Below the pieces are notes generated by a model, which was not told where the DNA came from, did no database searches, and was given only the letters and a program-made list of their open reading frames with translations. DNA of 64,000 nt from Eubacteriales bacterium. Its GTDB lineage: Bacteria > Bacillota > Clostridia > Lachnospirales > Lachnospiraceae. This document shows, in pieces, positions 20,552-37,882 of this stretch. Each line of letters begins with the position of its first letter. The stretch's first letter is position 1. Where the stretch lies: the NCBI GenBank assembly GCA_030526005.1, contig JAUNDP010000006.1, forward strand, positions 1 to 64,000, in the 5' to 3' direction. The position numbers were made by a program, and so were the translations under genes.

Positions 20552-20766
20552 ACATTCGCCTCCTCAAATTCAACAATATTAACAGAATATAAAAAGGAAA
20601 GACCCAAAATCAGCTGTCTGCTGCTTGTGATTCCCGCCTTCTTCAATGCTTTGGATATATCATAAATGGAAATCTTTTCCGCTTCCTGCTTTTGTATCTC
20701 TTTGAGTATGAGATAGCCAATATACATTGCGGAAGATTTCAGTGCATTGCTACTTGCCAGCATCAT
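20536..20766 (-). CDS. Small middle component of the ABC-3C system (MC6-like)
   Basis: A 76-residue protein with a winged-helix look: helices around NALKSSAMYIGYLILKEI, then ISIYDISKALKKAG and a beta wing (VNIVEFEEANVWV). Size, position between the SMEK gene and the DUF2326 ATPase, and overlaps with both match the small middle component, for which I recall the label MC6. The start at 20766 has GGAG five bases upstream; the adjacent ATG at 20763 is also possible. In such systems the component is thought to link ATPase and effector. Confidence 0.7.
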   Translation of the reverse strand: MMLASSNALKSSAMYIGYLILKEIQKQEAEKISIYDISKALKKAGITSSRQLILGLSFLYSVNIVEFEEANVWVKK

Positions 20767-21721
20767 ACTCACTCCTTTCATTTGGGAATACTCTGCATTT
20801 AATCATTTCGTTGACAAGATAAAATTTAATTGCAGAACGGTCATACTTTTTACCATTACTACTTAATTTTGTTTCAAAATATGTAACCAGTTTATTCAAT
20901 GCTGCAATCGGATTATTATTTTCCTCTTCCAAAAATTGTATGCTGATATCCTGTAAATAGAACATAATAGTAATGTCTTGCGCTTCATCTATCCCCAGTG
21001 TTTCATTTACAATATTCAATGCTTCTCCATAAAGTGTGTAAAGTGTCGTATATTCCGCAATCAATTTATCTGCAAAATCTCGAAACCTTTTATAAATTTT
21101 ATACTCCGGATCTACCGTTGTTTCACAAGGTTTCTTCCATGTTCTATGTTTTGAAATATACTCTATCAAATCTATGATTGTATCTACTTCACTGGCCTGC
21201 GTTTTTTTCACCGAATAATATTTATTACACAATTCTTCTGACAGGTAATTACTGATTGCTTTTATTTGTTCTGTTTCCAACTCTCGAACATCTTTCATCA
21301 GTTTTTCCATATCCCAAATATCTCTTCCTTTTTCAAACGAAAACATTCCCTTGGTATCAAAATTGGATGAGTATCTTTTCTTCTGCGTCAAAATCAGTAC
21401 AATCAATCTATCATAGGTCTGATACGCTTGGTTTTTATTAAATTCTTCTATCGTATGCTTGATCTTTGTGCTGCTATTATCTGATGTAACTTGAACTGCT
21501 ACCCGATTTTTGGGATCTACTAAATCAATCGCAGGGGCATTTTTCTCTAAATGATTTACATTTTTCAATTCATATCCATAGATAAGATTCAACAGTCCGG
21601 GAAAAAAATCTTCTGCAATGATGTTAATGTCATAGAGATTTACCGCATTTAAAATTGACACTTCCAGACTCAATAAGGCTAAACTCTCAGCCACATTTTT
21701 TAAATAAACCTCTTTGTTCAT
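20750..21721 (-). CDS. SMEK-domain protein, probable nuclease effector of the ABC-3C system
   Basis: A 323-residue protein. The first 140 residues match the SMEK domain, a restriction-endonuclease-like fold, with a core of AIDLVDPKNRVAVQVTSD (Asp, then Q-V-T in the place of the ExK-type strand). The C-terminal 150 residues are helical, as expected of the ABC-3C C-terminal region. The second of two tandem ATGs (21721) has better spacing from AAAGGAG. It is the first gene of the three-gene cassette and overlaps the next by 17 bases. Nuclease activity is inferred from the fold. The D/QxT signature differs from classical PD-(D/E)xK, so the catalytic residues are uncertain. Confidence 0.75.
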   Translation of the reverse strand: MNKEVYLKNVAESLALLSLEVSILNAVNLYDINIIAEDFFPGLLNLIYGYELKNVNHLEKNAPAIDLVDPKNRVAVQVTSDNSSTKIKHTIEEFNKNQAYQTYDRLIVLILTQKKRYSSNFDTKGMFSFEKGRDIWDMEKLMKDVRELETEQIKAISNYLSEELCNKYYSVKKTQASEVDTIIDLIEYISKHRTWKKPCETTVDPEYKIYKRFRDFADKLIAEYTTLYTLYGEALNIVNETLGIDEAQDITIMFYLQDISIQFLEEENNNPIAALNKLVTYFETKLSSNGKKYDRSAIKFYLVNEMIKCRVFPNERSEYDAGK

Positions 21722-21861
21722 CATGCTCCTTTATTCTCCTCATTTGTTGTTTTCTTTATTTTACCACACTTTTTTGTAAATTACTATTGATTTCCCCAGA
21801 AAACTATGGTATAGCTTTTATCTTTTCTAATATCACCATGCTATTTTTCACATACCGTCTC

Positions 21862-24209: not shown

Positions 24210-24284
24210 ATGAATAGTTATGATTTTCCATTAAAATCAGCTTATTTTAAAAGAAAAAAATACTCAAATATTGGAGTTGAAGAT

Positions 24285-27050
24285 ATGCCATACCAAAGCG
24301 AAGCTGCTCTTGAGCAACAGCTCATTGATCAATTAAATAAACAAGAATATCGCACGGTTTCGATCCCTGACTATAATACTTTAGTAGAAAATTTCAAAAT
24401 TCAATTTGAATTATTTAATTCTGCAAAGCTGGATTCGCCTCTGACAGATAAAGAATGGGAACGTATTTTTAATATTATGCTTGGAAAATCTGTTTTCCAA
24501 AGTGCAAAAATCCTAAGAGATAAGTTCGTGTTGGAACGTGAAGATGGAAGTAAAATCTATCTATCTTTTTTTGATTCCGACCATACAAAAAATATTTTCC
24601 AAGTCGCCAATCAAACGACGGTCGTTGGTAAATATGTAAATCGCTATGATGTTACCATTCTTGTAAATGGACTGCCTTTGATTCAGATTGAATTGAAACG
24701 CCGCGGCATTGACATTCGCGAAGCAGTCAATCAGGTAATGCGATACAAAAAGCATTCTTATAACGGACTATATCATTTTATTCAGCTTTTTGTTGTTTCC
24801 AACGGTGTTGATACAAAGTATTTTACAAATTCTGACAGGGATATGCTCTACAGCCTTGCTTTTTTCTGGACCGATTTCAATAATGTCCGTATTACAAATT
24901 TAAAAGAGTTTTGTATTTCCTTCCTTGCACGGGATCATATTATTAAAATGCTGACTCGTTATACCATTTTGAATGATACCGATAAGCTTTTGATGGTTAT
25001 GCGTCCTTATCAGGTGTACGCAGTAGAAGCTCTTGTCCGCCAGGCTACGCTAACAAACAGAAATGCTTACGTTTGGCACACAACGGGAGCCGGAAAAACG
25101 CTGACATCATTTAAGACGGCACAGATTCTTGCAAAAAATCCCAATATTAAAAAAGTAATCTTTCTTGTTGACCGTAAAGATTTGGATTCCCAAACTACAG
25201 AAGAATTCAATAAATTTGAAGCTGGTTCTGTTGATACAACAGATCGCACGGATGTCCTTGTAAAGCAGATGCAAGATAAAAACCGGCAACTGATCGTTAC
25301 TACAATGCAGAAAATGGCAAATGCTGTCAAACGTCCTCAATATGCTAAAATTATGAGTGCATACAAGGATGAAAAAGTAGTCTTTATCATTGACGAATGC
25401 CATCGCAGTCAATTTGGCGATATGCATAAGGATATTGTACGTCATTTCCAGAAAGCACAATTTTTCGGATTTACTGGAACACCTCGTTTTGAGGTCAATG
25501 GAAAAACAGAAGGCAAGATTACGCAGACTACAGAAATGCTTTTCGGAGAATGTGTACATAACTATCTTATAAAGGATGCTATCTTTGATAATAATGTTCT
25601 TGGTTTCCATGTAGAGTATATAAAGACAATGGAGGGAGACTTTGACTGGGACGATCCCACTATGGCAGATGCCATCGACGTCGGAGAATTATATCGCTCT
25701 GAAAAAAGAATGTCTTTGATTGCCAACCATATTATTCAAAACCATAAATCCAAGACAAGAAATTGTCAATACACAGCAATTTTTGCTGTTTCTTCAATAG
25801 AAGCGCTGGTAAAATATTACGATATTTTCAAACAAATCAAACATGATCTGAATATCACCGGCATTTTCTCTTATGGCCAAAATGAAGATGCTGAAGGCAA
25901 AGATGAGCATAGCCGCGATGCTCTTGAACGTATTATTTCAGACTATAATGAAAAATATAGTACAAACTTTTCTACCGATACATTCTCGGCATATCATAAA
26001 GATATTTCGGATCGTGTAAAAGGTAAAAAAACAAAATCATTGGATATTTTACTTGTAGTGAATATGTTCCTTACTGGTTTTGACAGTAAGCAACTGGCTG
26101 TTCTCTATGTGGATAAAGATCTGAAATATCATGATTTACTGCAAGCTTTCTCTCGTACCAATCGTGTGGAAAAAGAAACAAAACCTTTCGGCATCATTAT
26201 CTGCTACCGTAATCTAAAAAAGCGTACGGACGATGCTATTGCATTATTTTCTCAGAGTCATGATACAAGTGGAGTAATTGTTCCAGAATATCCATATTTT
26301 GTTGAAAAATTTAATGAAATGGTTTTAAAACTGAAAGATATTGCGCTTTCTCCAGAATGTGTAGATACCATGCAAAACGAGGATGATCAAAAACTCTTTG
26401 TTATTACATTCCGTGAGCTGACAAAATATTTGCAATCTTTACAGACCTTTGTTGAATTTCGCTTCGATAAGGATGCGCTTATCATGTCAGAACAGGAATA
26501 TCAGGACTATAAGAGCAAATATCTTATGCTTTATGCAAAACAAAAAGCGCATCGAGAAATTGTATCGGTTCTGAATGATGTGGATTTTTGTATTGAGCTA
26601 ATGGAAAGCGATCGCATCAATGTTGCTTACATTATGAATCTGATTCGCAATATCCATTTTGATGATACGGAGCAAAAAAATTATGACATCAAACACATAA
26701 AAGAAGAACTGAAAAGAACAGATAATCCACAGTTACTGCGCAAAGTGGAAATTTTGCAGGCATTTCTGGATCGAGTGGTTGTAGGATTGGAAAGTGCAGA
26801 TGAGATTGATTCTGCTTATAATGATTTTGAAAATGAAGCAAAACAAGAAGAAATTATTGCTTTTGCCCAATCTGAAGATATCGATTCTTCTATGCTGACA
26901 GAATTTATCTCGGAATATGAGTTCTCTGGCATCATGGATGCCGGTAATATCCGCGACCGAATCAACAAAGCGCTGCCACTATTGAAAAAGCGTTCTTTAG
27001 TCAATCGTATCGTAGAATTTATTAGAACGCACACAGAGAAATATCAATAA
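24285..27050 (+). CDS. hsdR: Type I restriction enzyme, R subunit (HsdR)
   Basis: A 921-residue motor and nuclease subunit. The N-terminal nuclease has the ExK strand (LIQIELKRRG) of the PD-(D/E)xK fold. The helicase core has Walker A (TTGAGKT, about residues 266-272) and the DECH box (from residue 370). Motif VI-type sequence LLQAFSRTNR and a helical C-terminal domain complete the family layout. I start at ATG 24285 with GGAG eight bases upstream; an in-frame ATG at 24210 has no site. It is first of hsdR-hsdM-hsdS with short spacings (12 and 2 bases). Its activity depends on HsdM and the current HsdS for site choice. Confidence 0.93.
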   Translation: MPYQSEAALEQQLIDQLNKQEYRTVSIPDYNTLVENFKIQFELFNSAKLDSPLTDKEWERIFNIMLGKSVFQSAKILRDKFVLEREDGSKIYLSFFDSDHTKNIFQVANQTTVVGKYVNRYDVTILVNGLPLIQIELKRRGIDIREAVNQVMRYKKHSYNGLYHFIQLFVVSNGVDTKYFTNSDRDMLYSLAFFWTDFNNVRITNLKEFCISFLARDHIIKMLTRYTILNDTDKLLMVMRPYQVYAVEALVRQATLTNRNAYVWHTTGAGKTLTSFKTAQILAKNPNIKKVIFLVDRKDLDSQTTEEFNKFEAGSVDTTDRTDVLVKQMQDKNRQLIVTTMQKMANAVKRPQYAKIMSAYKDEKVVFIIDECHRSQFGDMHKDIVRHFQKAQFFGFTGTPRFEVNGKTEGKITQTTEMLFGECVHNYLIKDAIFDNNVLGFHVEYIKTMEGDFDWDDPTMADAIDVGELYRSEKRMSLIANHIIQNHKSKTRNCQYTAIFAVSSIEALVKYYDIFKQIKHDLNITGIFSYGQNEDAEGKDEHSRDALERIISDYNEKYSTNFSTDTFSAYHKDISDRVKGKKTKSLDILLVVNMFLTGFDSKQLAVLYVDKDLKYHDLLQAFSRTNRVEKETKPFGIIICYRNLKKRTDDAIALFSQSHDTSGVIVPEYPYFVEKFNEMVLKLKDIALSPECVDTMQNEDDQKLFVITFRELTKYLQSLQTFVEFRFDKDALIMSEQEYQDYKSKYLMLYAKQKAHREIVSVLNDVDFCIELMESDRINVAYIMNLIRNIHFDDTEQKNYDIKHIKEELKRTDNPQLLRKVEILQAFLDRVVVGLESADEIDSAYNDFENEAKQEEIIAFAQSEDIDSSMLTEFISEYEFSGIMDAGNIRDRINKALPLLKKRSLVNRIVEFIRTHTEKYQ

Positions 27051-27062
27051 GGAGATTTAAAA

Positions 27063-28631
27063 ATGGATAATTCAATTCAGGCTCATCAAAAAGAGCTTTG
27101 TAACAAATTGTGGGCAATGGCAAATGCCCTCAGAGGAAATATGGAAGCTTATGAGTTCAAAAATTATATCTTGGGCATGATCTTCTACTACTATCTTTCT
27201 GACAGAACAGAAAAATATATGGTAAATCTTTTAAAAGATGATGATATCACTTATGAAGAAGCATGGAAAGATGAAGAATACAAAGCAGCTGTCATTGAAG
27301 AAGCTTTGCGTGATTTAGGATATATCATTGAACCACAGTTTTTGTTTCATAAAATGGTAAAAATGGTGGAGAATCGTTCTTTTGATATTGAGTTTCTGCA
27401 AAAAGCAATCAACTCATTAATGGATTCCACTATTGGAAATGATTCCCAAGAAGATTTTGACGGTTTGTTTTCCGATATGCAGCTTGATTCCACTAAACTT
27501 GGTCATACCGTAAAGGACAGAAGCGCCGTCATGGCTAAAATTATCGCTTCATTGGATGAAATCAATTTTAGTGTAGAAGATACAAAAATTGATGTTCTTG
27601 GAAATGCCTATGAATATCTGATTGGACAATTTGCCGCAACTGCCGGAAAAAAAGCCGGCGAATTTTACACGCCTTCCGGACCTGCTGAACTGCTATGCCG
27701 TCTTGCTTGTCTTGGATTGACAGACGTAAAGGAAGCAGCTGATCCAACCTGCGGTTCTGGCTCACTGCTGCTTCGCCTTAAAAACTATGCAAATGTCCGC
27801 AATTATTATGGTCAGGAATTGACCTCTACTACATATAATCTAGCTCGAATGAACATGATTCTTCGTGGTATCCCATATCGCAATTTTAATATCTATAATG
27901 GCGATACTTTAGAACATGATTGCTTTGGAAATATGAAATTCCGTGTTCAAGTTGCCAATCCTCCATATTCTGCAAAATGGTCTGCAGATATGCGTTTCAT
28001 GGAGGATGAACGTTTCAATGAATATGGAAAACTCGCCCCTAAGAGCAAAGCTGACTTTGCCTTTGTTCAGCATATGGTTCATCATATGGACGAAGATGGT
28101 CGTGCTGTTGTTTTATTGCCTCATGGTGTTCTCTTCCGCGGAGCTGCGGAAGCAGTAATTCGTAAATATCTTATACAAAAATTAAATGTTCTTGACGCTG
28201 TGATAGGTCTGCCTGCAAATCTCTTTTTTGGTACTGGTATTCCGGTTTGTGTCCTGGTACTTAGAAAAGAACGCAGCGCTAATTTTAATAATATTCTTTT
28301 CATTGATGCCTCTAAAGATTTTGAAGCTGGGAAAAATCAGAATATTCTCAGAGAATGTGATATTGATAAAATTGTAGAGACTTACGAACAGCGCAAAGAT
28401 GTTGACAAATATGCCCATGTTGCAACTATGCAGGAAATTGAAGACAACGACTTTAACCTCAATATTCCTCGCTATGTAGATACCTTTGAACCTGAAGAAG
28501 AAATTGATCTTAATGAAGTTGCTGCTGAAATTCGTAAGCTACAAAAAGAAATTAAAGGAATTGACGCCGAGTTAAAACCATTTTTTGATGAGCTTGGACT
28601 TGATTTTCCTTTTGAAGTGGAGGGTGAATAA
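27063..28631 (+). CDS. hsdM: Type I DNA methyltransferase subunit (HsdM)
   Basis: 522 residues. An N-terminal helical HsdM domain is followed by an N6-adenine methyltransferase domain: S-adenosylmethionine motif I as DPTCGSGSLLL (Asp about 227) and catalytic motif IV NPPY (from Asn 299). The C-terminal helical tail (LNEVAAEIRKLQKEIKGI) is the usual HsdS-contact region. AAGGAG precedes the start. Because HsdM modifies whatever site HsdS dictates, rearrangement of hsdS would change the genome methylation pattern. Confidence 0.95.
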   Translation: MDNSIQAHQKELCNKLWAMANALRGNMEAYEFKNYILGMIFYYYLSDRTEKYMVNLLKDDDITYEEAWKDEEYKAAVIEEALRDLGYIIEPQFLFHKMVKMVENRSFDIEFLQKAINSLMDSTIGNDSQEDFDGLFSDMQLDSTKLGHTVKDRSAVMAKIIASLDEINFSVEDTKIDVLGNAYEYLIGQFAATAGKKAGEFYTPSGPAELLCRLACLGLTDVKEAADPTCGSGSLLLRLKNYANVRNYYGQELTSTTYNLARMNMILRGIPYRNFNIYNGDTLEHDCFGNMKFRVQVANPPYSAKWSADMRFMEDERFNEYGKLAPKSKADFAFVQHMVHHMDEDGRAVVLLPHGVLFRGAAEAVIRKYLIQKLNVLDAVIGLPANLFFGTGIPVCVLVLRKERSANFNNILFIDASKDFEAGKNQNILRECDIDKIVETYEQRKDVDKYAHVATMQEIEDNDFNLNIPRYVDTFEPEEEIDLNEVAAEIRKLQKEIKGIDAELKPFFDELGLDFPFEVEGE

Positions 28632-28633
28632 TT

Positions 28634-29872
28634 ATGGCAAATGTATCCTCTAGTAACGGTCTCGAAAAGCGTCCGAAGCTCCGCTTTCCGGGCTTTGACG
28701 AGCCGTGGGAAGAAAAGGAACTATCACACTATCTTGTTGAAAACGTAGAGCGTAATAGAGGCTTGGCGTTTGGAAAAGAAGATGTTCTTTCTGTTTCTGG
28801 CGAATATGGCGTTGTAAATCAAATAGCTTTTCAGGGGCGGTCATTTGCAGGTGAGAGTGTGGCTGAATACCATGTTGTTGAAACAGATGATATTGTATAT
28901 ACAAAGAGTCCACTCAAGGCAAATCCCTACGGTATTGTAAAAGTCAATAAAGGCGTTCCAGGTATTGTATCTACTCTTTATGCCGTGTATCATCCTCTAA
29001 ATACCGTTGTTCCACGGTTCATTGATTTGTATTTTGCCAATGATCTCCGATTAAATAAATTTCTCAAGCCTCTGGTTAATATTGGCGCAAAACATGACAT
29101 GAAAGTGAACAACTCATTTGTTCTAACGGGAACGGTGATATTTCCTTCTATTGGCGAGCAGCAGAGACTTGTGGACTTTTTCGCAATACTTGATCGTCGT
29201 ATTGAATCTCAAAAAAAAATAGTAGACGCCCTCAAGAAGTATAAAAGAGGTGTCATGTCTGTACTTCTCAGCTCAAAAGCCAATCCTTACTATTCGCCTG
29301 AAACATGGAAAGAAGTGTCTCTGAGTGATGTAGCAAGTGGCTTTGAGTATGGTATAAATGCCGCTGCGACGATCTACGACGGGTCCCATAAGTACATTAG
29401 GATCACGGATATAGACGATAGCTCCCATCTTTATATTCAAGACGAGCTGGTTTCCCCAGAAGGGCAAGTGGAAGAGAAATATCGAGTTGAGGAAAACGAC
29501 ATTTTATTTGCTCGTACAGGGGCATCTGTGGGTAAAAGCTATTGCTATCGGCGAAGCGATGGGGAGCTATATTTTGCAGGGTTTCTTATTCGCATCCATG
29601 TAAATTCAGGCGTGGATTGTAGTTATGTCTTTCAGAACACATTAACCGAAGCATATAGACGATGGGTAATGCTTGAGTCTGCTCGATCTGGTCAACCGGG
29701 AATTAACGCTGAGCAATATAAACAATATCGCTTTCTTCTTCCACCAATAGAAATACAGAAAAAGATTTCATTCTTGGCTTCTAATCTTGATGCTCTAATC
29801 TCTAAAGGTGAAGGTCTTATATCTCAGCTCGGACGGACTAAGGCAGCATTGTTGCAGCAGCTCTTTATATGA
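28634..29872 (+). CDS. hsdS: Type I specificity subunit, expressed copy (HsdS)
   Basis: 412 residues, two target-recognition domains (TRD1 about residues 20-195, TRD2 about 225-390), each ending in a conserved helix. The first helix leads into the KKYKRG repeat (DNA 29231-29254) and the protein ends LLQQLFI. Only this copy has a start codon and ribosome binding site (GGAGGG spanning the hsdM stop). The first six residues (MANVSS) come from DNA outside the inverted repeat; the rest is the exchangeable cassette. It is the expression locus of an inversion-driven shufflon with the seven silent cassettes at 29865-36698. Confidence 0.94.
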   Translation: MANVSSSNGLEKRPKLRFPGFDEPWEEKELSHYLVENVERNRGLAFGKEDVLSVSGEYGVVNQIAFQGRSFAGESVAEYHVVETDDIVYTKSPLKANPYGIVKVNKGVPGIVSTLYAVYHPLNTVVPRFIDLYFANDLRLNKFLKPLVNIGAKHDMKVNNSFVLTGTVIFPSIGEQQRLVDFFAILDRRIESQKKIVDALKKYKRGVMSVLLSSKANPYYSPETWKEVSLSDVASGFEYGINAAATIYDGSHKYIRITDIDDSSHLYIQDELVSPEGQVEEKYRVEENDILFARTGASVGKSYCYRRSDGELYFAGFLIRIHVNSGVDCSYVFQNTLTEAYRRWVMLESARSGQPGINAEQYKQYRFLLPPIEIQKKISFLASNLDALISKGEGLISQLGRTKAALLQQLFI

Positions 29873-31028
29873 AGAGCTGCTGCAACAAGCCCTCCCTAAA
29901 GTTCATGAGCATTCTTAGGCTATCGCCGGATGTGCAGATTTTCTTGTCTATTGCTTCAAGAATTGAAACTATTTTCTCTTGAGTTGGAATGCAAGGTATG
30001 TCAAAAAGTTCTTTTTCTATGTTTGCCCATTCTGCTCTTGGCATTTTGGTGCCAGAGCTTATGTTGGCTACTCTAAGAAAATGCTCTGTCTGAACAAGAT
30101 AATAGAGGTATTGGGGGATAACATATTCTGAGGGGATAAATGCCCATATTTCCGATGAGCAAACAATATCCTGCTCTGCAAACGCAAACTTTCTCAAATA
30201 AGGTCGCAGTTTTCCAAAGAGAACATCTCCGCTTCTCGCCACCGTTTTAATGCTGCTCTGCATCGTAGATGAAACGCTACCAAGCAATCTGCCCGTTCCT
30301 GGCTCAATGTGTTCCAGCTCGATACACGGATATTCAACTCCGCTATCGGGACTGTACTTTTCCTTTCTTCGCTGAGCAATTTCTGAGAAAAGATATGCAG
30401 TTGAGTCTGCGTCATTAGAAACGGACATTTCCTCAAAAACATAGGAAAGGAGACCTCTTTTATACTTCTTGAGCTGTTCGACAAGCGTTGCCTGTATCGC
30501 AATCCTTTTGTCGAGGGTGACAAGCATAGAGGCTACTTTTTCCTGCTCTGCAATTTCCGGCAAATACACCTTGATTGTTTCTATTTTCGGATATTTCAAG
30601 TTCCATGTATCGGAGGTCATGCCCTGTGAGTTCTTTCTGAACTCGTTGATTAGTTTATAGTTCTTGAAAAGTGCTGCAAAATACTCATTGCAGATAGGGA
30701 TCTTTGCCGTAAGGACAGTGTAGGCAGGGCTGACGATACCGTCATAAGAAGACACTCCATTCGCTCCTTGCCACATCCTCATCGAGTTATAGACCATATC
30801 TCCCTTGCGGACAACCTTGTAGTTGCTTTTATCTTCGCTTGAGTTGTCTTTCCCCTCAATTTCGGAACGCTGCATAACCCCACCGTTCATTGTGACGGAA
30901 AGCAATTCCATATCAGCAGCTCCACGCTCACTACGCTCGGCGTATATGTCCCCGATGCGATGTAATATATACGGCTCATCAAAGTCCGGAAACCTGAGTT
31001 TCGGACGCTTTTCGAGACCGTTACTTGA
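29865..31028 (-). CDS. Silent hsdS cassette 2 (complete: TRD1 + TRD2)
   Basis: The minus-strand frame is open from the 5' repeat (SNGLEKRPKLRFPDFDEP at 30971-31030) to the stop at 29865, through a central KKYKRG repeat (30453-30473), ending LLQQLFI. There is no start codon or ribosome site upstream, so it is silent unless recombined into the expression locus; an internal ATG at 30911 lacks the conserved N-terminus. TRD1 begins YILHRIGDIY and TRD2 follows RGLLSYVFEEM; both differ from the expressed copy. Its 3' end overlaps that of hsdS by eight bases inside a palindrome. Confidence 0.85.
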   Translation of the reverse strand, partial: SSNGLEKRPKLRFPDFDEPYILHRIGDIYAERSERGAADMELLSVTMNGGVMQRSEIEGKDNSSEDKSNYKVVRKGDMVYNSMRMWQGANGVSSYDGIVSPAYTVLTAKIPICNEYFAALFKNYKLINEFRKNSQGMTSDTWNLKYPKIETIKVYLPEIAEQEKVASMLVTLDKRIAIQATLVEQLKKYKRGLLSYVFEEMSVSNDADSTAYLFSEIAQRRKEKYSPDSGVEYPCIELEHIEPGTGRLLGSVSSTMQSSIKTVARSGDVLFGKLRPYLRKFAFAEQDIVCSSEIWAFIPSEYVIPQYLYYLVQTEHFLRVANISSGTKMPRAEWANIEKELFDIPCIPTQEKIVSILEAIDKKICTSGDSLRMLMNFREGLLQQLFI

Positions 31029-31067
31029 GGTCTATTTTCCAACTGAATAGTAGCAAGAACTTAAAGC

Positions 31068-31114
31068 AAAATCCCTTGCAGTAGCAGAGAATTTCCGCTA
31101 TTGCAAGGGATTTT
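31068..31114. repeat. Spacer palindrome between cassettes 2 and 3
   Basis: AAAATCCCTTGCA pairs with TGCAAGGGATTTT around TAGC/GCTA arms. The A- and T-rich ends make it terminator-like on both strands. Near-identical copies lie at 32990-33035 and 34302-34348. Confidence 0.75.
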
Positions 31115-31149
31115 CGTCTTTCGTATAGCTTTTTTGCGTACTTAGTCAG

Positions 31150-31779
31150 AAGTATAAAAGAGGGCTGTTTCAAGTTATGTTTCCGCAAAAAGGCGCAACT
31201 GTCCCCAAGCTTCGATTTGTAGGATTTGCTGGCACTTGGGAACAGCGTAAGTTGGAAGAAGTAGCTAAATACCGTAATGGTAAGGCTCATGAAAATTGTA
31301 TTGATGACAATGGAAAATATATTGTTGTAAACTCAAAATTTGTTTCTACAGAGGGAGAAGTTAAAAAGTTTTCTAATATGCAGAATGAAGCTCTATTTGA
31401 AAATGAAATAGCTTTTGTATTGAGTGATGTGCCAAATGGGCGAGCAATAGCAAGGACTTTTTTGGTTGAAAAAAGCGATAAATACACGCTAAATCAACGA
31501 ATTGCAGGTATAACTCCTTTGAACGAAACATATCCATATTACCTTTATATTTTGATGAATAGACACCCATATTTTCTAGCATTTGATGACGGCGCAAAAC
31601 AAACTAATTTATCAATTTCAGATGTGATGGAATTTGAATCATATTACCCAATATATGACGAACAGAAAAAAATTGGTAAATTTTTTCGTAATCTTGATCA
31701 CCTTATCACCCTTCATCAGTGTAAACTTGACATCCTGATGCAATATAAAAACGGGTTCTTGCAGCAGCTCTTTATATAA
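31150..31779 (+). CDS. Silent hsdS half-cassette 3 (TRD2 only)
   Basis: The frame opens at the central repeat (KYKRGLFQVMFPQKG) and runs to the LLQQLFI stop. There is no TRD1; upstream lies a 118-base spacer with a terminator-like palindrome. It is therefore a donor for the C-terminal recognition domain only. The first stretch (MFPQKGATVPKLR, then WEQRKL) closely matches cassette 8, although the later TRD2 sequence differs. An annotation pipeline may call it as a 200-residue HsdS starting at 31177. Confidence 0.83.
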   Translation, partial: KYKRGLFQVMFPQKGATVPKLRFVGFAGTWEQRKLEEVAKYRNGKAHENCIDDNGKYIVVNSKFVSTEGEVKKFSNMQNEALFENEIAFVLSDVPNGRAIARTFLVEKSDKYTLNQRIAGITPLNETYPYYLYILMNRHPYFLAFDDGAKQTNLSISDVMEFESYYPIYDEQKKIGKFFRNLDHLITLHQCKLDILMQYKNGFLQQLFI

Positions 31780-32950
31780 AAAGCTGCTGCAAGAGACCAA
31801 GTTTGATAGACAAGAAAGATTGAAGTATTTTTTCTTCTTGCGATATGTGGAGGTCAATCAACCCTAAATATTCTCCAATTCGCTTTTGTTCATTTACATT
31901 GTTAGGAATAAGCACCTCGACATTTTCTATGTCAACCCTATTGATTGCCGTAAAGGTTCCTCCTTGCTCAATAGTTTTCCAGGAAGGCTCAAGATAAAGA
32001 AATAACTGTCGTACAAAGGCATTATTTTCTGAGTTTATAGCACACACGCCTCGTCCTAAACAAACTTCACGATCTGCGATACAAACAGTTCCAACCGGGG
32101 CACGCACTGACAATAGAATACTGCCTTTTTTGCACACTTTTGTAGGTTGAGATGTATAGCGATACGGTGTTGTCACTCCATCTGTTATATCGGCATTTCC
32201 CTGAACGAGTGGTACACCTACACATTCTGAATTATACGAGTTAGAATCTGGAGATTGTCCCATGGTAATGCTACAAAATTCGCCTATTTTTTTCTTTGTC
32301 CAAGTATTCTTATAATGTTGTTTTGAACTAAAGACATAATTTAACAACCCTCTTTTATACTTCTTGAGGTTATCTACGAGGGACTGCTGCGTCTCGATGC
32401 GACGATCCAATGCGATAAGGAAGTCTGCAATCTTTCTTTGCTCATTGGTGTTTTCTGGCAGATAATGTTTTGTGTCAAAGAACTCTTCGGTTGGAACATT
32501 CAACAGACCATGATTTCTTGCACCTTCGGCAGAGATCATGTATATTTCCCTATACCATTTCAGAGAATCGAAATAGGCTTTGATGAAGTCGCTTTCGTGC
32601 CTTTTGAGTGCAAAACAGATGTAAAGCGTTGATAAAGCCCCCATCGGATAACGATCCAGCCGTTTGATAGAGCCAAAGTCATACCCCACGGAATAGCTCT
32701 TGTTGTAAGCAAACTCGCCATTTTTGAGCAGATAGTACCCACTCATGTCTTTACTCGCAACCGTCTTATTGAAGTAGCTTACCTGATCAACAAGACCATC
32801 TTTTGAGGAAATAGTTAAAGGAAGATCAGTTTCGTTTTTGCTGTTCTTCCGTGTTACACGATCTGCGAAGTCAGATAATCTCTCGGCTCTCCACGGCTCG
32901 TCAAAGCCCGGAAAGCGGAGTTTCGGACGCTTTTCGAGACCGTTACTTGA
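31772..32950 (-). CDS. Silent hsdS cassette 4 (complete: TRD1 + TRD2)
   Basis: The minus-strand frame is open from the 5' repeat at 32891-32952 (SNGLEKRPKLRFPGFDEPW) through TRD1 (RAERLSDFADRVTRKN), the central repeat at 32348-32368, and TRD2 (NTWTKKKIGEFCSITMGQSP) to LLQQLFI. No start codon or ribosome site is present. An internal ATG at 32746 gives a shorter 324-residue reading. Its 3' end overlaps half-cassette 3 by eight bases. Confidence 0.85.
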   Translation of the reverse strand, partial: SSNGLEKRPKLRFPGFDEPWRAERLSDFADRVTRKNSKNETDLPLTISSKDGLVDQVSYFNKTVASKDMSGYYLLKNGEFAYNKSYSVGYDFGSIKRLDRYPMGALSTLYICFALKRHESDFIKAYFDSLKWYREIYMISAEGARNHGLLNVPTEEFFDTKHYLPENTNEQRKIADFLIALDRRIETQQSLVDNLKKYKRGLLNYVFSSKQHYKNTWTKKKIGEFCSITMGQSPDSNSYNSECVGVPLVQGNADITDGVTTPYRYTSQPTKVCKKGSILLSVRAPVGTVCIADREVCLGRGVCAINSENNAFVRQLFLYLEPSWKTIEQGGTFTAINRVDIENVEVLIPNNVNEQKRIGEYLGLIDLHISQEEKILQSFLSIKLGLLQQLFI

Positions 32951-32989
32951 GGTTTATTTTCCAGGCTGATTTGCTCACGAACTCAAAGT

Positions 32990-33035
32990 AAAATCCCTTG
33001 CAGTAGCAGAGAGTTTCCGCTATTGCAAGGGATTT
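32990..33035. repeat. Spacer palindrome between cassettes 4 and 5
   Basis: Second copy of the palindrome at 31068-31114, with a few changes in the flanks. It sits in the equivalent position between a 5' repeat and a central repeat. Confidence 0.75.
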
Positions 33036-33070
33036 CGTCTGTCATATAACTATTTCTGCGTACTTGATCA

Positions 33071-33644
33071 GAAGTATAAAAGAGGTGCTATTTCCCATAT
33101 TCTTTCAGGCAAAGACAGCGAGTTTTCTGGCGAAGCTATATGGGCTGAGAAGACACTTTCTGACTTATGTTGTGAGTTCAGAAGTGGGCGTAACATATCA
33201 GCAACACTCATCCATGAAAGCGGAGATTATCCTGTGTATGGGGGTAATGGCATACGAGGGTATTGTGACCATTATAGTCATGAGGGTGAATATGTAGTAG
33301 TGGGACGACAAGGTGCATTATGCGGAAATGTCCGGCTTATTCGAGGGCAAAACTATTTGTCTGAACACGCTATTGCGGTTCGTGCGAACGAGGAAAACGA
33401 TACCAAGTTTCTATTGTATTTACTTGATTTCATGAATCTTGGTCAGTATTCAGACCAAGGCGCACAACCCGGTCTTGCCGTAAACAAACTTCTGAGGCTC
33501 AAATGTAATGTTCCTGAGAAAAAAATACAGTCAAAAATATCGGCTTTTCTTCTGACTTATGATAAACAAATTGCTTTTCAGAAAAGTATTCTTTCTTTAC
33601 TAACTGCTCAGCGCAAAGCATTCTTGCAGCAGCTTTTTATATAA
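33071..33644 (+). CDS. Silent hsdS half-cassette 5 (TRD2 only)
   Basis: The frame opens at the central repeat (KYKRGAISHILSGKD) and encodes one recognition domain (TLSDLCCEFRSGRNIS, YPVYGGNGIRGY) ending in LLQQLFI. There is no TRD1. The visible ATG at 33234 is internal, so calling this a 136-residue gene would miss its first third. It is preceded by a spacer with the shared palindrome and overlaps half-cassette 6 by eight bases at the 3' end. Confidence 0.82.
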
Positions 33645-34267
33645 AGAGCTGCTGCAAGAGGGAAACTCGCATTCTAACCAACTGACGCTCCATACTTTCA
33701 GCATTCGCTATTTTTTTATTTACTGCTTCAAATAGCTTTGACAAGTGTTTCTGTTCTTCCATTGACGGCAAACACCGACGGATACCGACAAATTGGGAAT
33801 AATGTACTCTTTGCTTTTCAATAAGCGATCCTGTAGCAATGAGCTTGTAGTGAATTAGCATGGGGTACGATGTCAGGTATTCTTCCCAGAAACTAATAGT
33901 ATCAGTTTCATTGACAGAAAAGATATTATAATAACCCGAAACGGCGGCAGTATATCCGAGATGATTGGGGGCGATTGCTCCTAAATGGGCATTCATGGGA
34001 TTATATGCAAACCAACCGGGCTTGATTGCTTTATAGTTGTCTCCCTCCTTAGTTATAAGAAATTCACGGTAATAACGCTCTGTTTTGGGTGTTATTCCAT
34101 CCTCAACAGTGAGACTAACCAGAGGTGTGTCTGGGCTATTTGATGTCTTTATAATTTGTTCGGTGAAAAATTCACCAAAAGATGATACTTCCCATGTTGG
34201 ATAATGATCTTTTCCATTTCCTTTTCTTCCAGAGAATACTCGCTGAATGACACCTCTTTTATACTTC
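33637..34267 (-). CDS. Silent hsdS half-cassette 6 (TRD2 only)
   Basis: The minus-strand frame runs from the central repeat (KYKRGVIQRVFSGRKG) through a recognition domain (YPTWEVSSFGEFF, PLVSLTVEDGITP) to LLQQLFI at 33637. No TRD1 and no start are present. The ATG-initiated reading from 33996 covers only its second half. It is back to back with full cassette 7 across a spacer nearly identical, in inverse orientation, to that beside half-cassette 3. Confidence 0.82.
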
Positions 34268-34301
34268 TGACTAAGTACGCAGAAAAGCTATATGAAAGAC
34301 G

Positions 34302-34348
34302 AAAATCCCTTGCAATAGCGGAAATTCTCTGCTACTGCAAGGGATTTT
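34302..34348. repeat. Spacer palindrome between cassettes 6 and 7
   Basis: Third copy, within a spacer (34269-34385) that is almost the exact reverse complement of the spacer at 31031-31147. Confidence 0.75.
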
Positions 34349-34387
34349 GCTTTATGTTCTTGCCACTATTCAGTTGGAAAAAAGACC

Positions 34388-35545
34388 TCAAGTAACGGTC
34401 TCGAAAAGCGCCCAAAACTTAGGTTTCCGGGCTTTGACGAGCCGTGGTGTGAAGTAAAAATCAAAGATATTTTCCGTGTTACCAGAGGCAGTGTATTAGC
34501 GGCAGATATGGTTTCATCATCTAACACTGCTGAATATAAGTTTCCTGTATACTCATCACAAACTAAATCTGATGGTTTGCTCGGTTATTTTGACTCGTAT
34601 CTATACGAGAATGCAATAACTTGGACAACAGACGGTGCAAATGCTGGGACGGTTCATTATCGTGATGGAAAGTTCTATTGCACAAATGTGTGTGGTGTTC
34701 TTTTGAATGAAAATGGATATGCAAACAGATGCACGGCGGCTATTTTGGGTTCTTTGAGTAAGAAATATGTTTCTTATGTTGGAAATCCAAAACTTATGAA
34801 CAATATAATGTCTGAGATACCAATCGTCATACCATCTTTAGAAGAACAATATAAAATCGACAGTTTGATCGCCGTATTGGATAAACGAATTAAGGCTCAG
34901 CAAATGATTATTTTCCACCTCAAGAAGTATAAAAGAGGTGTCACAGCCAAGCTTATTGCAGCGATTGAGAAAAAATATCCTGTTGTAAAATTAGGCGATC
35001 ATGTAACTATAATGCGTGGTGGCTCCCCCCGTCCGATAGATGCTTATATTACCAATGTAGAGAACGGAATACGATGGATCAAAATTGGAGATGCCCTGCC
35101 GGATCAGTTGTACATTTTAGACACAAAGGAAAAGATAAAGCCGGAAGGCGCAAAAAAGTCTCGTCGTGTCTATGATGGGGATTTAATTTTGTCAAACTCG
35201 ATGAGTTTTGGCAGACCATATATTCTTAAAGTTAATGGTTGCATTCACGACGGTTGGTTGCTGATACGGGATGAGGAAAAGAAATTTGACAAACGCTTTT
35301 TATGTTTTTATCTCGCTTCTGATTCAACCTTAGCTCAATATAAGAAATACGCTGCCGGTAGTTGTGTAAACAATCTTAACTCTGAATTGGTAGCCAGTGT
35401 GGAAATCGGTATGCCGCCCATAGAGCAGCAGATTCATGTGGCTGACATTCTCGAAAAGATTGATAGACAGGTGCAAGCATTAAGCACAATGTACGCGTTG
35501 CTTAACAGGGTACGCAGTGCATTGTTGCAACAACTCTTTATATAA
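34388..35545 (+). CDS. Silent hsdS cassette 7 (complete: TRD1 + TRD2)
   Basis: The plus-strand frame runs from the 5' repeat (34386-34447) through TRD1 (CEVKIKDIFRVTRGSVL), the central repeat at 34919-34942 and TRD2 (YPVVKLGDHVTIMRGGSP) to LLQQLFI. It has the same orientation as the expressed hsdS, so its 5' repeat is a direct repeat of the expression site. It could enter only after a prior inversion of the intervening DNA. No start codon precedes the repeat. Confidence 0.85.
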   Translation, partial: SSNGLEKRPKLRFPGFDEPWCEVKIKDIFRVTRGSVLAADMVSSSNTAEYKFPVYSSQTKSDGLLGYFDSYLYENAITWTTDGANAGTVHYRDGKFYCTNVCGVLLNENGYANRCTAAILGSLSKKYVSYVGNPKLMNNIMSEIPIVIPSLEEQYKIDSLIAVLDKRIKAQQMIIFHLKKYKRGVTAKLIAAIEKKYPVVKLGDHVTIMRGGSPRPIDAYITNVENGIRWIKIGDALPDQLYILDTKEKIKPEGAKKSRRVYDGDLILSNSMSFGRPYILKVNGCIHDGWLLIRDEEKKFDKRFLCFYLASDSTLAQYKKYAAGSCVNNLNSELVASVEIGMPPIEQQIHVADILEKIDRQVQALSTMYALLNRVRSALLQQLFI

Positions 35546-36698
35546 AGAGCTGCTGCAACAGACCGTTTTTCTGTTTCCTTAAAAGAACAAGCTTACTCTG
35601 ATGAAAAATGATAAGATTGTCGAGATTTTCAAAAAGGGCACCTATTTGTTTTTGTTCATCACGATTATTGGTAAAGAAAACTTCTCTATCAGCAAGAATA
35701 GAATAATAGCGTTTATATCCCTCTGATATAGGTTTGTTCTTTTCTAAAAGGGAGAGAAGATAGTTTCCATCCATTTCATTGACACCTTGAAGAATACGAA
35801 CTCCGTCAGTGGCAACAAAGAACGGTCTTTTCGGCTTGTATAGCGATAAAGTATGATCTCCAAAAATCACTATATCTCTGAACTCATTGCATGGTTCTCC
35901 ATTGGCAAAACCGATAATCGGGTCATTGCCTTGCTGTATTATTTCAAATTTCCCACCTTGTTCCGGCACTTTCAAGTAGACCTTGAACGGTAGTGTTTTC
36001 AATATTTCCCCTAACTTACGTTGCTCCCAAGCACCAGCAAATCCTGCTAGTCGTAGCTTGGGGACAGTTGCGCCTTTTTGCGGAAACATAACTTGAAGCA
36101 ACCCTCTTTTATACTTCTTGAGAGTTTCGATTAGTTTCTGCTGTGTTGCAATTCGCCTGTCAATACTTTCAAGAAGGCTTAGTATTTTTTGTTGTTCATC
36201 TAAAGCCGGAAATGTAACGCTAATTTTTGATAATTCTTCTGCCCGAACATGAACAACAGACTTTCCCTGAGCGACACTTGAAATTTGTTTGTTTACTTTG
36301 TTTTTTACACAAAAACTAACAAATCTACCATCAATCTGCTCGGTTCTATAAATAAGAAGATCCCCTGCGAGGATTACATCAGGTATCATAATACATGACG
36401 CAGTTGCTATATCTTCCGGCGTTTCGCCGGAGGTAGGCATTATTACATCTCCTATTTTACTATAAAACTGATGTTCAACGGTTTTATCTGTTTTTCTTTT
36501 TACAGAATTAGTGACTTCTGAATAAGTTGTATATAGTTCCCCGTACAAAATAAAGGGAGTCCCTTCATCAGAAATGTCAGCTTTAGATAATGGCGCACCT
36601 TTTATGAATGTACCCATTTCACCCAATTTCCGTGTCATCCACGGCTCGTCAAAGCCCGGAAAGCGGAGCTTCGGACGCTTTTCGAGACCGTTACTAGA
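35538..36698 (-). CDS. Silent hsdS cassette 8 (complete: TRD1 + TRD2)
   Basis: The minus-strand frame runs from the 5' repeat at 36639-36700 through TRD1 (MTRKLGEMGTFIKGAPLS), the central repeat at 36102-36122 and TRD2 (MFPQKGATVPKLR, WEQRKLGEIL) to LLQQLFI. It has an in-repeat ATG at 36638 but lacks the normal ribosome site. It is the last cassette, adjacent to the recombinase. The inverted orientation relative to the expression locus makes a direct N-repeat by N-repeat inversion possible. Confidence 0.85.
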   Translation of the reverse strand, partial: SSNGLEKRPKLRFPGFDEPWMTRKLGEMGTFIKGAPLSKADISDEGTPFILYGELYTTYSEVTNSVKRKTDKTVEHQFYSKIGDVIMPTSGETPEDIATASCIMIPDVILAGDLLIYRTEQIDGRFVSFCVKNKVNKQISSVAQGKSVVHVRAEELSKISVTFPALDEQQKILSLLESIDRRIATQQKLIETLKKYKRGLLQVMFPQKGATVPKLRLAGFAGAWEQRKLGEILKTLPFKVYLKVPEQGGKFEIIQQGNDPIIGFANGEPCNEFRDIVIFGDHTLSLYKPKRPFFVATDGVRILQGVNEMDGNYLLSLLEKNKPISEGYKRYYSILADREVFFTNNRDEQKQIGALFENLDNLIIFHQSKLVLLRKQKNGLLQQLFI

Positions 36699-36753
36699 GG
36701 TTTATAATGTGCTGATTATTTCTCCATCGGATAATGTTCATGGAGGTGGTAAT

Positions 36754-37701
36754 ATGACTAAGAACACACAATTCAAGACGCTTGTGAATGCTTGGTTAAA
36801 TCAAAAGAAGCCAATGATCACGCCGTCAACCCATGCCAGTTTTACGCTGATTGCTGAAAATCATCTGATACCATACTTCGGCAAGCGAAAAATTGGCAGC
36901 ATTACAGAAGCAGATATCCAGAGCTACATTTCGTATCTCTACAATTCCGGCAGATTGGACAACACTGGAGGACTCACAGTTAAAACTATCCGGGATGTCA
37001 TTCTTGTTCTCAGGCTTTCGATGGAATATGCCTACAAAGAAAGAGCTATTCCTCTGCTGAACTGGGAACTCATCGAATATCCAAAAGATCTTAGTATCAA
37101 GAAAGTGATCTCACTTTCTAAAGATCAAGAACAATCTCTGATTCAGTGTATCTATATGGATCTTAACAGAAAAACAGCTGGCATTCTGATTGCTCTATTT
37201 ACTGGAATCAGAATTGGAGAACTTTGTGGTTTACAGATGAAGGATATCTCCCTGACTGATAAAACCATCAGTATTAACAAAACTGTCCAACGCATTTATG
37301 ACAAAAAAAAGCGAGAGTCCTATCTGCATATTGGTCCGCCAAAAACAAAGACATCTGCAAGAACAATACCTGTGCCGTCATTGCTCATGAACATTATCAA
37401 AAAGTTTTACACGGAAAATCCAAATCACTACTTCTTGACTGGAAAAACAAAACCAACGGAGCCCCGTACATATCGGCAGTTTTTCGCCCGTTTCTTGAAG
37501 CGAAATGAACTTGAAAAAGTAAAATTTCATGAAATACGCCACACCTTTGCAGTAAGAGCGATTGAAATACCAGAATTTGATGTAAAATCTCTTTCTGAAA
37601 TTCTTGGACATAAAAATGTTTCTTTCACTCTTAATGTTTATGGCAGTGCAAACTTGCAACAGAAGATCAAATGTATGAATCTGTTAAATGAACTTTTGTA
37701 A
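36754..37701 (+). CDS. Tyrosine recombinase, probable hsdS invertase
   Basis: A 315-residue phage-integrase-family recombinase. The N-terminal SAM-like core-binding domain covers about residues 1-100. The catalytic domain has Arg153 (GIRIGEL), a beta-hairpin Lys near 197-199, His259-x-x-Arg262 (HEIRHTF), His286 (LGHKNV) and nucleophile Tyr296. All catalytic residues are present, so it should be active. I start at ATG 36754 after GGAGGTGG; an open frame reaches back into cassette 8 but has no site. Its position beside the cassettes matches known hsdS-inverting recombinases. A strong terminator follows. Confidence 0.9.
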   Translation: MTKNTQFKTLVNAWLNQKKPMITPSTHASFTLIAENHLIPYFGKRKIGSITEADIQSYISYLYNSGRLDNTGGLTVKTIRDVILVLRLSMEYAYKERAIPLLNWELIEYPKDLSIKKVISLSKDQEQSLIQCIYMDLNRKTAGILIALFTGIRIGELCGLQMKDISLTDKTISINKTVQRIYDKKKRESYLHIGPPKTKTSARTIPVPSLLMNIIKKFYTENPNHYFLTGKTKPTEPRTYRQFFARFLKRNELEKVKFHEIRHTFAVRAIEIPEFDVKSLSEILGHKNVSFTLNVYGSANLQQKIKCMNLLNELL

Positions 37702-37707
37702 AAAATC

Positions 37708-37752
37708 AGCGAACAGGAACGGTATTTTACTGTTCCTGCTCGCTCTTTTTTT
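37708..37752 (+). terminator. Terminator after the recombinase
   Basis: AGCG.ACAGGAAC pairs with GTTCCTG.TCGCT, followed by CTTTTTTTC, seven bases beyond the stop. Confidence 0.8.
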
Positions 37753-37882
37753 CTTTACTTCTTTTCTACTGTCTATTTTCTATTAATCTCTTCTTTAACT
37801 TCTTAAACTTCCTGATAATTTTTTACCTTTTTATACTCGATTTTTTTCTATTTTTTGTAGACCCTCATAAATAAACTTCATT

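Follow-up and report, generated by a model that had tools for sequence, protein, structure and literature searches.

We analysed a window of 64,000 nucleotides (positions 1 to 64,000 of contig JAUNDP010000006.1, Eubacteriales bacterium, assembly GCA_030526005.1), which carries a type I restriction-modification (R-M) operon, hsdR-hsdM-hsdS, followed by an array of additional hsdS cassettes and a tyrosine recombinase gene (Table 1). The best reading of this locus, and in our view a very probable one, is an inverting hsdS system with its own tyrosine recombinase, in which the target recognition domains (TRDs) of a single array could be combined into up to 40 HsdS proteins. The original prediction, made from the letters of the window, had proposed such a system with a dedicated recombinase, and it is supported both by the anatomy of the locus and by natural inversion isomers in its relatives.

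Profile matches show the operon to be complete (24210-29872), as had been predicted. The product of hsdR scored 415.8 bits against NCBIfam TIGR00348 (cut-off 284.55), contains the Pfam domains HSDR_N, SWI2_SNF2 and EcoR124_C, and matched PADLOC REase_I with an E value of 2.7e-276, while the product of hsdM scored 412 bits against TIGR00497 (cut-off 242.75) and contains N6_Mtase and HsdM_N; the first hsdS matches the S subunits 1yf2, 7vru and 2y7c in the PDB. The interval of 28634 to 37701 originally given for the locus does include the array and the recombinase, but the operon starts outside it, at 24210. The array consists of eight cassettes (limits set by us) in alternating orientation, which form four tail-to-tail pairs. 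Besides the expressed unit 1, seven cassettes with open frames were found, as many as had been announced, and three of these are half-cassettes with a TRD2 only. No internal stop was found in any of the eight downstream of the 5' repeat or central core. A search with a TRD profile, built partly from the window's own TRDs, identified 13 TRDs (5 TRD1 and 8 TRD2), the same count as in the original prediction, and protein identity among the 12 of these 13 that were extracted and compared does not exceed 35%. An in-frame ATG in the 10 codons upstream is seen for unit 1 alone among the five full cassettes, and the three half-cassettes have no ATG in the 60 bases upstream. The claim that the silent cassettes lack start codons holds for an upstream ATG (the check covered ATG, and the silent cassettes may have GTG or TTG starts and promoters), but ATGs do occur inside them. 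A promoter scan gave 35 matches vs. 38.3 expected, and a terminator scan 14 vs. 10.7 expected.

Inverted repeats sit before TRD1 (the 5' core) and between TRD1 and TRD2 (the central core). The central 16-mer AGAAGTATAAAAGAGG occurs eight times without a mismatch and the 5' 20-mer AGTAACGGTCTCGAAAAGCG five times exactly, with a mean of 0.00 copies for each in 100 dinucleotide shuffles, and the 16-mer is confined to the array within the 2.5-Mb genome. The flanks diverge immediately beyond the 16-mer, in which no symmetry was evident by eye, and across 50 distinct sites in 14 close loci (pre-selected, being located with up to two mismatches) every position of the central core is at least 90% kept. 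In the open-licence literature the central 11-mer or its complement appears in 8 papers, all of them on other subjects as judged by title. The 3' repeat is a palindrome made by the overlapping 3' ends of paired cassettes, and each of the three inner head-to-head junctions holds one hairpin.

These elements suggest how the system would work. HsdR, HsdM and the HsdS of unit 1 would form an active enzyme. The adjacent tyrosine recombinase would invert DNA between oppositely oriented 5' cores, which would exchange the whole gene, or between oppositely oriented 16-bp central cores, which would exchange TRD2 alone. Each inversion could thus bring a different TRD1, a different TRD2 or both downstream of the one start codon, at 28634, and the enzyme with the new TRD combination would recognise another bipartite target, while the hairpins and palindromes may insulate the silent cassettes from transcription. 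In a breadth-first search of the possible arrangements (at least 766,677 states, with the allele count complete at step 3), the 5' cores alone gave 5 HsdS, the central cores alone 8, and both together 40, all within three inversions (7 alleles one step away, 19 two and 13 three). We infer switching in this strain, catalysis by the recombinase and different specificities of the TRDs; the population-level switching of methylation, phage resistance and gene expression that had been predicted may then follow.

Judged by sequence comparison, the strongest evidence for the inversion mechanism is a set of natural isomers, found in relatives and not in this strain. A scan of genome contigs retrieved 53 loci encoding relatives of the recombinase (designated by L numbers), and two near-identical pairs of these differ in the order of their arrays. 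L012 (Intestinimonas butyriciproducens An565) and L013 (Faecalibacterium sp. An122) are 99.8% identical in hsdR-hsdM and 96.7% identical over 11 kb from the recombinase onward, and they hold the same seven extracted TRDs (99.8-100%) in changed order, with c12 + c13 as the expressed TRD1 and TRD2 in one and c4 + c1 in the other. L018 and L019 are 99.98% identical upstream; their three extracted TRD2s are 100% identical and have moved, a block comparison showed that the rest of the array had moved too, and the expressed genes share their TRD1 and differ in TRD2. In both pairs, each central core has a left flank that goes with TRD1 (or with the hairpin junction) and a right flank that goes with TRD2, and since the two flanks follow different partners, the central exchange falls inside these 16 bp. 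For the 5' core, L012/L013 show a left flank that keeps its place and a right flank that moves, which puts the 5' exchange within ~25 bp (the 5' repeats of L018/L019 did not match the pattern, and this crossover was narrowed in L012/L013 only). These two intervals therefore make the recombinase directly testable. The shortest inversion paths take five steps for L012/L013 and four for L018/L019 and use both core classes; with the 5' cores alone or the central cores alone, neither pair is reachable. Of the three repeat classes originally listed, the 5' and central classes are thereby backed as crossover sites. The 3' class is not: neither pair shows any change at its 3' junctions, and adding 3' sites made the paths no shorter. 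An inversion at the 3' palindromes had also been considered for the layouts of L009 and L012, and was dropped because inversion at the 5' cores yields the same layout.

Table 1 Features of the hsdS array, its operon and its recombinase (window positions)
Feature	Position	Strand	Remarks
hsdR, type I restriction subunit, 946 aa	24210..27050	+	NCBIfam, Pfam, PADLOC
hsdM, N6-adenine methyltransferase subunit, 522 aa	27063..28631	+	NCBIfam, Pfam
Unit 1, expressed hsdS, full (TRD1 + TRD2)	28634..29872	+	ATG behind GGAGG; Pfam Methylase_S
Unit 2, silent full cassette	29865..31036	-	In-frame stop directly 5' of repeat
Unit 3, silent half-cassette, TRD2 only	31147..31779	+	TRD profile
Unit 4, silent full cassette	31772..32958	-	In-frame stop directly 5' of repeat
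Unit 5, silent half-cassette, TRD2 only	33069..33644	+	TRD profile
Unit 6, silent half-cassette, TRD2 only	33637..34269	-	TRD profile
Unit 7, silent full cassette	34383..35545	+	Without stop directly 5' of repeat
Unit 8, silent full cassette	35538..36706	-	In-frame stop directly 5' of repeat
Tyrosine recombinase, 315 aa	36754..37701	+	Pfam Phage_integrase and Phage_int_SAM_3
5' core, unit 1	28647..28671	+	CCTC[T/A]AGTAACGGTCTCGAAAAGCG
5' core, unit 2	31006..31030	-	
5' core, unit 4	32928..32952	-	
5' core, unit 7	34386..34410	+	
5' core, unit 8	36676..36700	-	Facing recombinase
Central core, unit 1	29235..29250	+	AGAAGTATAAAAGAGG
Central core, unit 2	30454..30469	-	
Central core, unit 3	31148..31163	+	
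Central core, unit 4	32349..32364	-	
Central core, unit 5	33070..33085	+	
Central core, unit 6	34253..34268	-	
Central core, unit 7	34923..34938	+	
Central core, unit 8	36103..36118	-	
3' palindrome, tail-to-tail junction 1/2	29850..29888		Coding ends LLQQLFI*
3' palindrome, junction 3/4	31757..31794		
3' palindrome, junction 5/6	33622..33659		
3' palindrome, junction 7/8	35522..35560		
Hairpin, head-to-head junction 2/3	31069..31113		69-base stretch, -30.7 kcal/mol
Hairpin, head-to-head junction 4/5	32991..33035		-28.2 kcal/mol
Hairpin, head-to-head junction 6/7	34303..34347		-31.4 kcal/mol

The recombinase has all the catalytic residues that had been attributed to it (R153, H259, R262, H286 and Y296, counted from motif positions). 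Its closest solved chain by sequence is 6en0 ('Int protein', which we take to be the Tn1549 integrase), with which the arginine, HxxR, histidine and tyrosine motifs align. The start is most likely at 36754, behind a GGAGG, rather than at 36574. The protein is not an IntI-type integrase by NCBIfam TIGR02249 (25.5 bits vs. a cut-off of 265), and it reached 80 bits against the mixed XerA/integron model NF040815 (cut-off 220). A TATAAT hexamer lies upstream of the gene within 36701-36753, adjoining the outermost 5' core, and some relatives show a similar hexamer at the same place by eye; the promoter scan did not flag the one in the window. The hexamer could be a -10 box, in which case expression of the recombinase would be independent of array order.

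Records with recombinase relatives include Oscillibacter, Eisenbergiella, Intestinimonas, Faecalibacterium, Clostridium porci, Holdemania and others, as well as metagenome-assembled genomes labelled as more distant phyla (labels as deposited). At E <= 1e-60 the recombinase was found in 2 of 391 sampled genomes of the class, its own included, and the central 16-mer in 4 of 397 sampled genomes of the family, with eight copies in its own genome, four in one and a single copy in two. Single copies are at the level of a reversed-pattern control, which itself matched once in some genomes, and only arrays were counted. The four-copy genome contains sequence of L018, a record of bacterium 1XD42-76 (NCBI lineage unclassified Bacteria). 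From the taxa among which such loci occur, the host is probably a gut clostridium close to Lachnospiraceae. In the seven relatives fetched with both hsdR and recombinase (L009, L010, L012-L014, L016 and L023), DNA homology to the window starts at 24244-24260 and ends at 37701-37764, and the neighbouring genes had no listed match. Because homology stops at both ends and the neighbours are unmatched, the predicted mobile unit is the stretch from hsdR to the recombinase, ~13.5 kb. L018 and L019 encode a recombinase ~90% identical to that of the window together with an HsdR of only 44% and an HsdM of 59% identity, so the array machinery there is attached to a different type I subfamily, and the putative switching module appears to move between subfamilies.

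Two further kinds of relative were met. In Holdemania filiformis (L021, 7310-10948) an hsdS pair, its first frame called from TTG, lies with a recombinase, and the 10 kb fetched, which is partly masked, gave no match to the HsdR or HsdM of the window; the module may be an orphan that supplies specificity to an HsdM at another place. Two IMG/VR (viral) contigs carry arrays with the same cores, one with seven TRDs (L082) and one with four and three in two stretches of the same contig (L083 and L087). Pfam Phage_portal was found in none of three records searched (these two contigs and the L014 genome), of which the viral ones may be fragments, and the IMG/VR contigs may be chromosome that was misclassified, or mobile elements of another kind.

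Array size was compared across 19 countable arrays flanked by hsdM and the recombinase (17 genome loci, L082 and the window). The TRD numbers of 16 of these, including the window, fit one module rule. An array starts with hsdRM and [5'core-TRD1-central-TRD2], continues with n bodies (TRD2', TRD1', hairpin, TRD2, in either orientation) and ends with [TRD2'-TRD1'-5'core'] and the recombinase, which yields 2+n TRD1 and 2+2n TRD2. Four TRDs (n = 0) are found in L023, L039, L045 and the near-identical L053-L055, seven (n = 1) in L009, L010, L012-L014, L016, L018, L019 and L082, and 13 (n = 3) in the window, the largest of the 19; L035 (6 TRDs), L036 (8) and L033 (9) fall outside the rule. The junction hairpin accounts for 12 of the 16 distinct stretches returned by a pattern search (three in the window and one each in L009, L010, L012/L013, L014, L016, L018/L019, L025, L082 and L087, with folding energies of -27.1 to -33.4 kcal/mol), and the other four are different sequence. 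The original prediction had called this many donor units large, which holds against the 18 relatives (4-9 TRDs) and the published systems compared, though larger arrays may be in print. The contig breaks off no more than 220 bp upstream of the recombinase in 16 of the 47 loci where this gene is full or nearly so (L009-L055), and no more than 220 bp downstream of it in 4 (hand count); the upstream breaks hide array size in the relatives concerned.

Some modules of the window have near-identical counterparts in other genera. Over the stretch from 5' to central core, the TRD1 of unit 8 shares 98.8% identity with the TRD1 that Clostridium porci (L014) expresses, up to the last base of the central 16-mer, where the match ends; the TRD1 of unit 4 shares 99.3% with both L014 and Flavonifractor plautii (L025). 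For junction 6/7 the identity to L014 is 98.6%, while the other two junctions match L014 at 94% and at 90% over 91 of 117 bases. The TRD2 of unit 5 is 87% identical to L016, and none of the window's extracted TRD2s clusters with those of L014. The window modules are thus of mixed origin by these comparisons, and the array looks mosaic. Since the TRD1s and the junction are near-identical while the DNA of hsdR, hsdM and recombinase is only 78-80% identical to L014 (79% to L025 for the recombinase), exchange of modules between arrays is indicated rather than recent transfer of the whole element; the boundaries would fit import by the recombinase or by ordinary recombination, because later inversions would trim either to the cores. 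A further reading, which we hold to be less probable than not, is that the array acts as an open library instead of a closed switch: the cores that flip TRDs within a cell would also pass whole TRD modules between arrays of different genera, with gut Clostridia sharing a cassette pool. Growth of arrays by whole modules, in an integron-like manner without the integron enzyme family, is likewise conceivable though somewhat doubtful, and the window array may possibly, rather than probably, be one that reached roughly double the common size with modules of diverse provenance.

Domain movement, the shift of a TRD between the TRD1 and TRD2 positions, is known from Helicobacter work. No near-identical TRD was found at both positions here, and no DNA cluster at 75% mixes them; the highest cross-position protein identity among the best matches shown was 55.7% over 183 residues. 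The TRD1 of unit 8 and the TRD2 c1 of L012/L013 are 55% identical in protein over 180 residues, which suggests that TRDs moved between the two positions long ago.

Several observations weigh against a recombinase-driven inverting system in this strain. Alternative arrangements were seen between the members of two near-identical pairs of relatives and not within this strain, and each pair represents different genomes (species representatives) rather than one culture. The recombinase is tied to the cores by adjacency and co-occurrence only, and it was itself the search bait. L033, a complete array of nine TRDs with a recombinase 78% identical, has no 16-mer at up to one mismatch, nor do most loci beyond L026, and in far loci the first half of the central core varies. 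Units 1 and 7 carry their 5' cores in the same orientation, so that deletion is as conceivable as inversion. Finally, pneumococcal spnIII recombination is said, in the title of one paper, to be independent of all known recombinases, and the need for the recombinase in pneumococcus is debated.

Four alternatives to the inverting system were weighed against these data. Homologous recombination of the RecA type, or gene conversion between the repeats, would make the recombinase dispensable. Sixteen bases is short for homologous recombination, and in both isomer pairs the central crossovers fall inside 16 bp with divergent flanks; the recombinase is moreover kept at ~90% in L018 and L019, where HsdR and HsdM belong to another subfamily. 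On the other side, the 5' repeats align over 62 bases, one pair of them at 100%, and excerpts of the literature describe less frequent inversions without need for PsrA in pneumococcus (PMC7096588), recombination independent of known recombinases (PMC6620402) and TvrR-independent excision at longer repeats (PMC6265443). Taken together we regard this route as improbable. In this strain the array could also have lost its ability to switch and be a static collection or one in decay, with which the direct 5' repeats of units 1 and 7 and the origin of the switching evidence in relatives would agree; given that all 8 cassettes are open, all 13 cores exact and the recombinase complete with its catalytic residues, this is very doubtful.

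The order of the eight cassettes might instead be an assembly product, for example of two strains' four-cassette arrays joined together. Two standard arrays would hold 6 TRD1 and 8 TRD2, near the 5 + 8 observed, the mixed lineages of the junctions also fit a strain mixture, and arrays of this type break assemblies, as the contig ends upstream of the recombinase illustrate. However, no duplicate was found among the 12 TRDs compared (closest two at 35% protein identity), the grammar is kept at every junction, and reported contamination is 0.44%, which leaves an artefact of this sort little probability. The remaining possibility, which we consider unlikely, is excision and reintegration of circles, as in pneumococcal tvr, instead of inversion. 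The body module does correspond to a segment between two same-oriented 5' cores (e.g., L009 5584 to 7527), and the TRD numbers of 16 of the 19 arrays fit whole modules. Inversions alone nevertheless explain both isomer pairs, neighbouring cores alternate in orientation, and, in contrast to tvr, the repeats follow hsdM and hsdR precedes it: a tvr-type layout, with a direct-repeat array between hsdM and hsdR, was not found, nor was any larger frame in the array other than hsdS or antisense (TvrA and TvrT were not searched for).

Outside the array, contig C14 of the same genome (C14:1-2047, L077) carries a second, unrelated hsdM/hsdS at its end, and this hsdS was ruled out as a part of the array, having no blastn match to it. 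Upstream of hsdR, on the minus strand (18794-21724), lies a likely defence operon of a SMEK-domain protein, a small ORF and a DUF2326 protein, with PADLOC matches to PDC-M68B, LmuB and Aga_REase-PNTD and none for the small ORF; it presumably resembles a three-component ABC-type defence system.

An inverting hsdS system of this kind is already known as phase-variable type I R-M, and the pneumococcal and Bacteroides precedents that the original prediction pointed to were found; the comparisons here draw on excerpts of the cited papers. Pneumococcal cod/SpnIII with PsrA has, like the window, hsdR-hsdM-hsdS, silent donors, inverted repeats and a locus-borne tyrosine recombinase (PMC7096588, PMC4948785), and its inversion at a 15-bp repeat in S. 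pneumoniae strictly needs PsrA (PMC7096588). It has three hsdS and up to six alleles (PMC7557576), compared with eight cassettes, 13 TRDs and 40 HsdS in the window, a comparison made by description, leaving out core sequences and recombinase kinship. Shufflon BB of Bacteroides fragilis likewise has a tyrosine integrase beside the last hsdS, and reaches eight specificities with four inverted-repeat sets; half-cassettes and hairpin junctions, present in the window, are not mentioned in the excerpt of that source (PMC3090145). S. suis SsuCC20p shows recombinase-dependent shuffling at 14-bp repeats and horizontal transfer of the locus, with four TRDs and two identical repeat sets, on a prophage region and in streptococci only (PMC10790761), whereas the window has two distinct core classes, 13 TRDs and relatives in several families. 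Pneumococcal SpnIV/tvr also shuffles TRDs by a locus-borne tyrosine recombinase, but by excision and reintegration via direct repeats with TvrAT (PMC6265443), in contrast to the inversion grammar of the window. The Enterococcus faecalis type I locus shares a recombinase, several variable hsdS and a large TRD pool, although its 13 5'-TRDs and 16 3'-TRDs over 24 loci are spread over strains and no figure per locus is stated (PMC7394358), whereas the window holds 5 + 8 in one array. As far as checked in the open-licence literature, beyond which larger arrays may be in print, the new aspects are the TRD number per array, the half-cassette/hairpin grammar, and the cross-genus, near-identical TRD modules bounded at cores.

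If the system is active, one lineage would have access to up to 40 type I specificities, as against 4, 6 and 8 in those of the compared published systems that give a number. It would then be a strong model for the effects of fast specificity switching in commensal Clostridia on defence against phages, uptake of DNA and gene expression, and also for the question of how cells whose HsdR is intact live through a switch of target. The near-identical TRD modules found across genera further suggest that methylation specificities circulate as cassettes.

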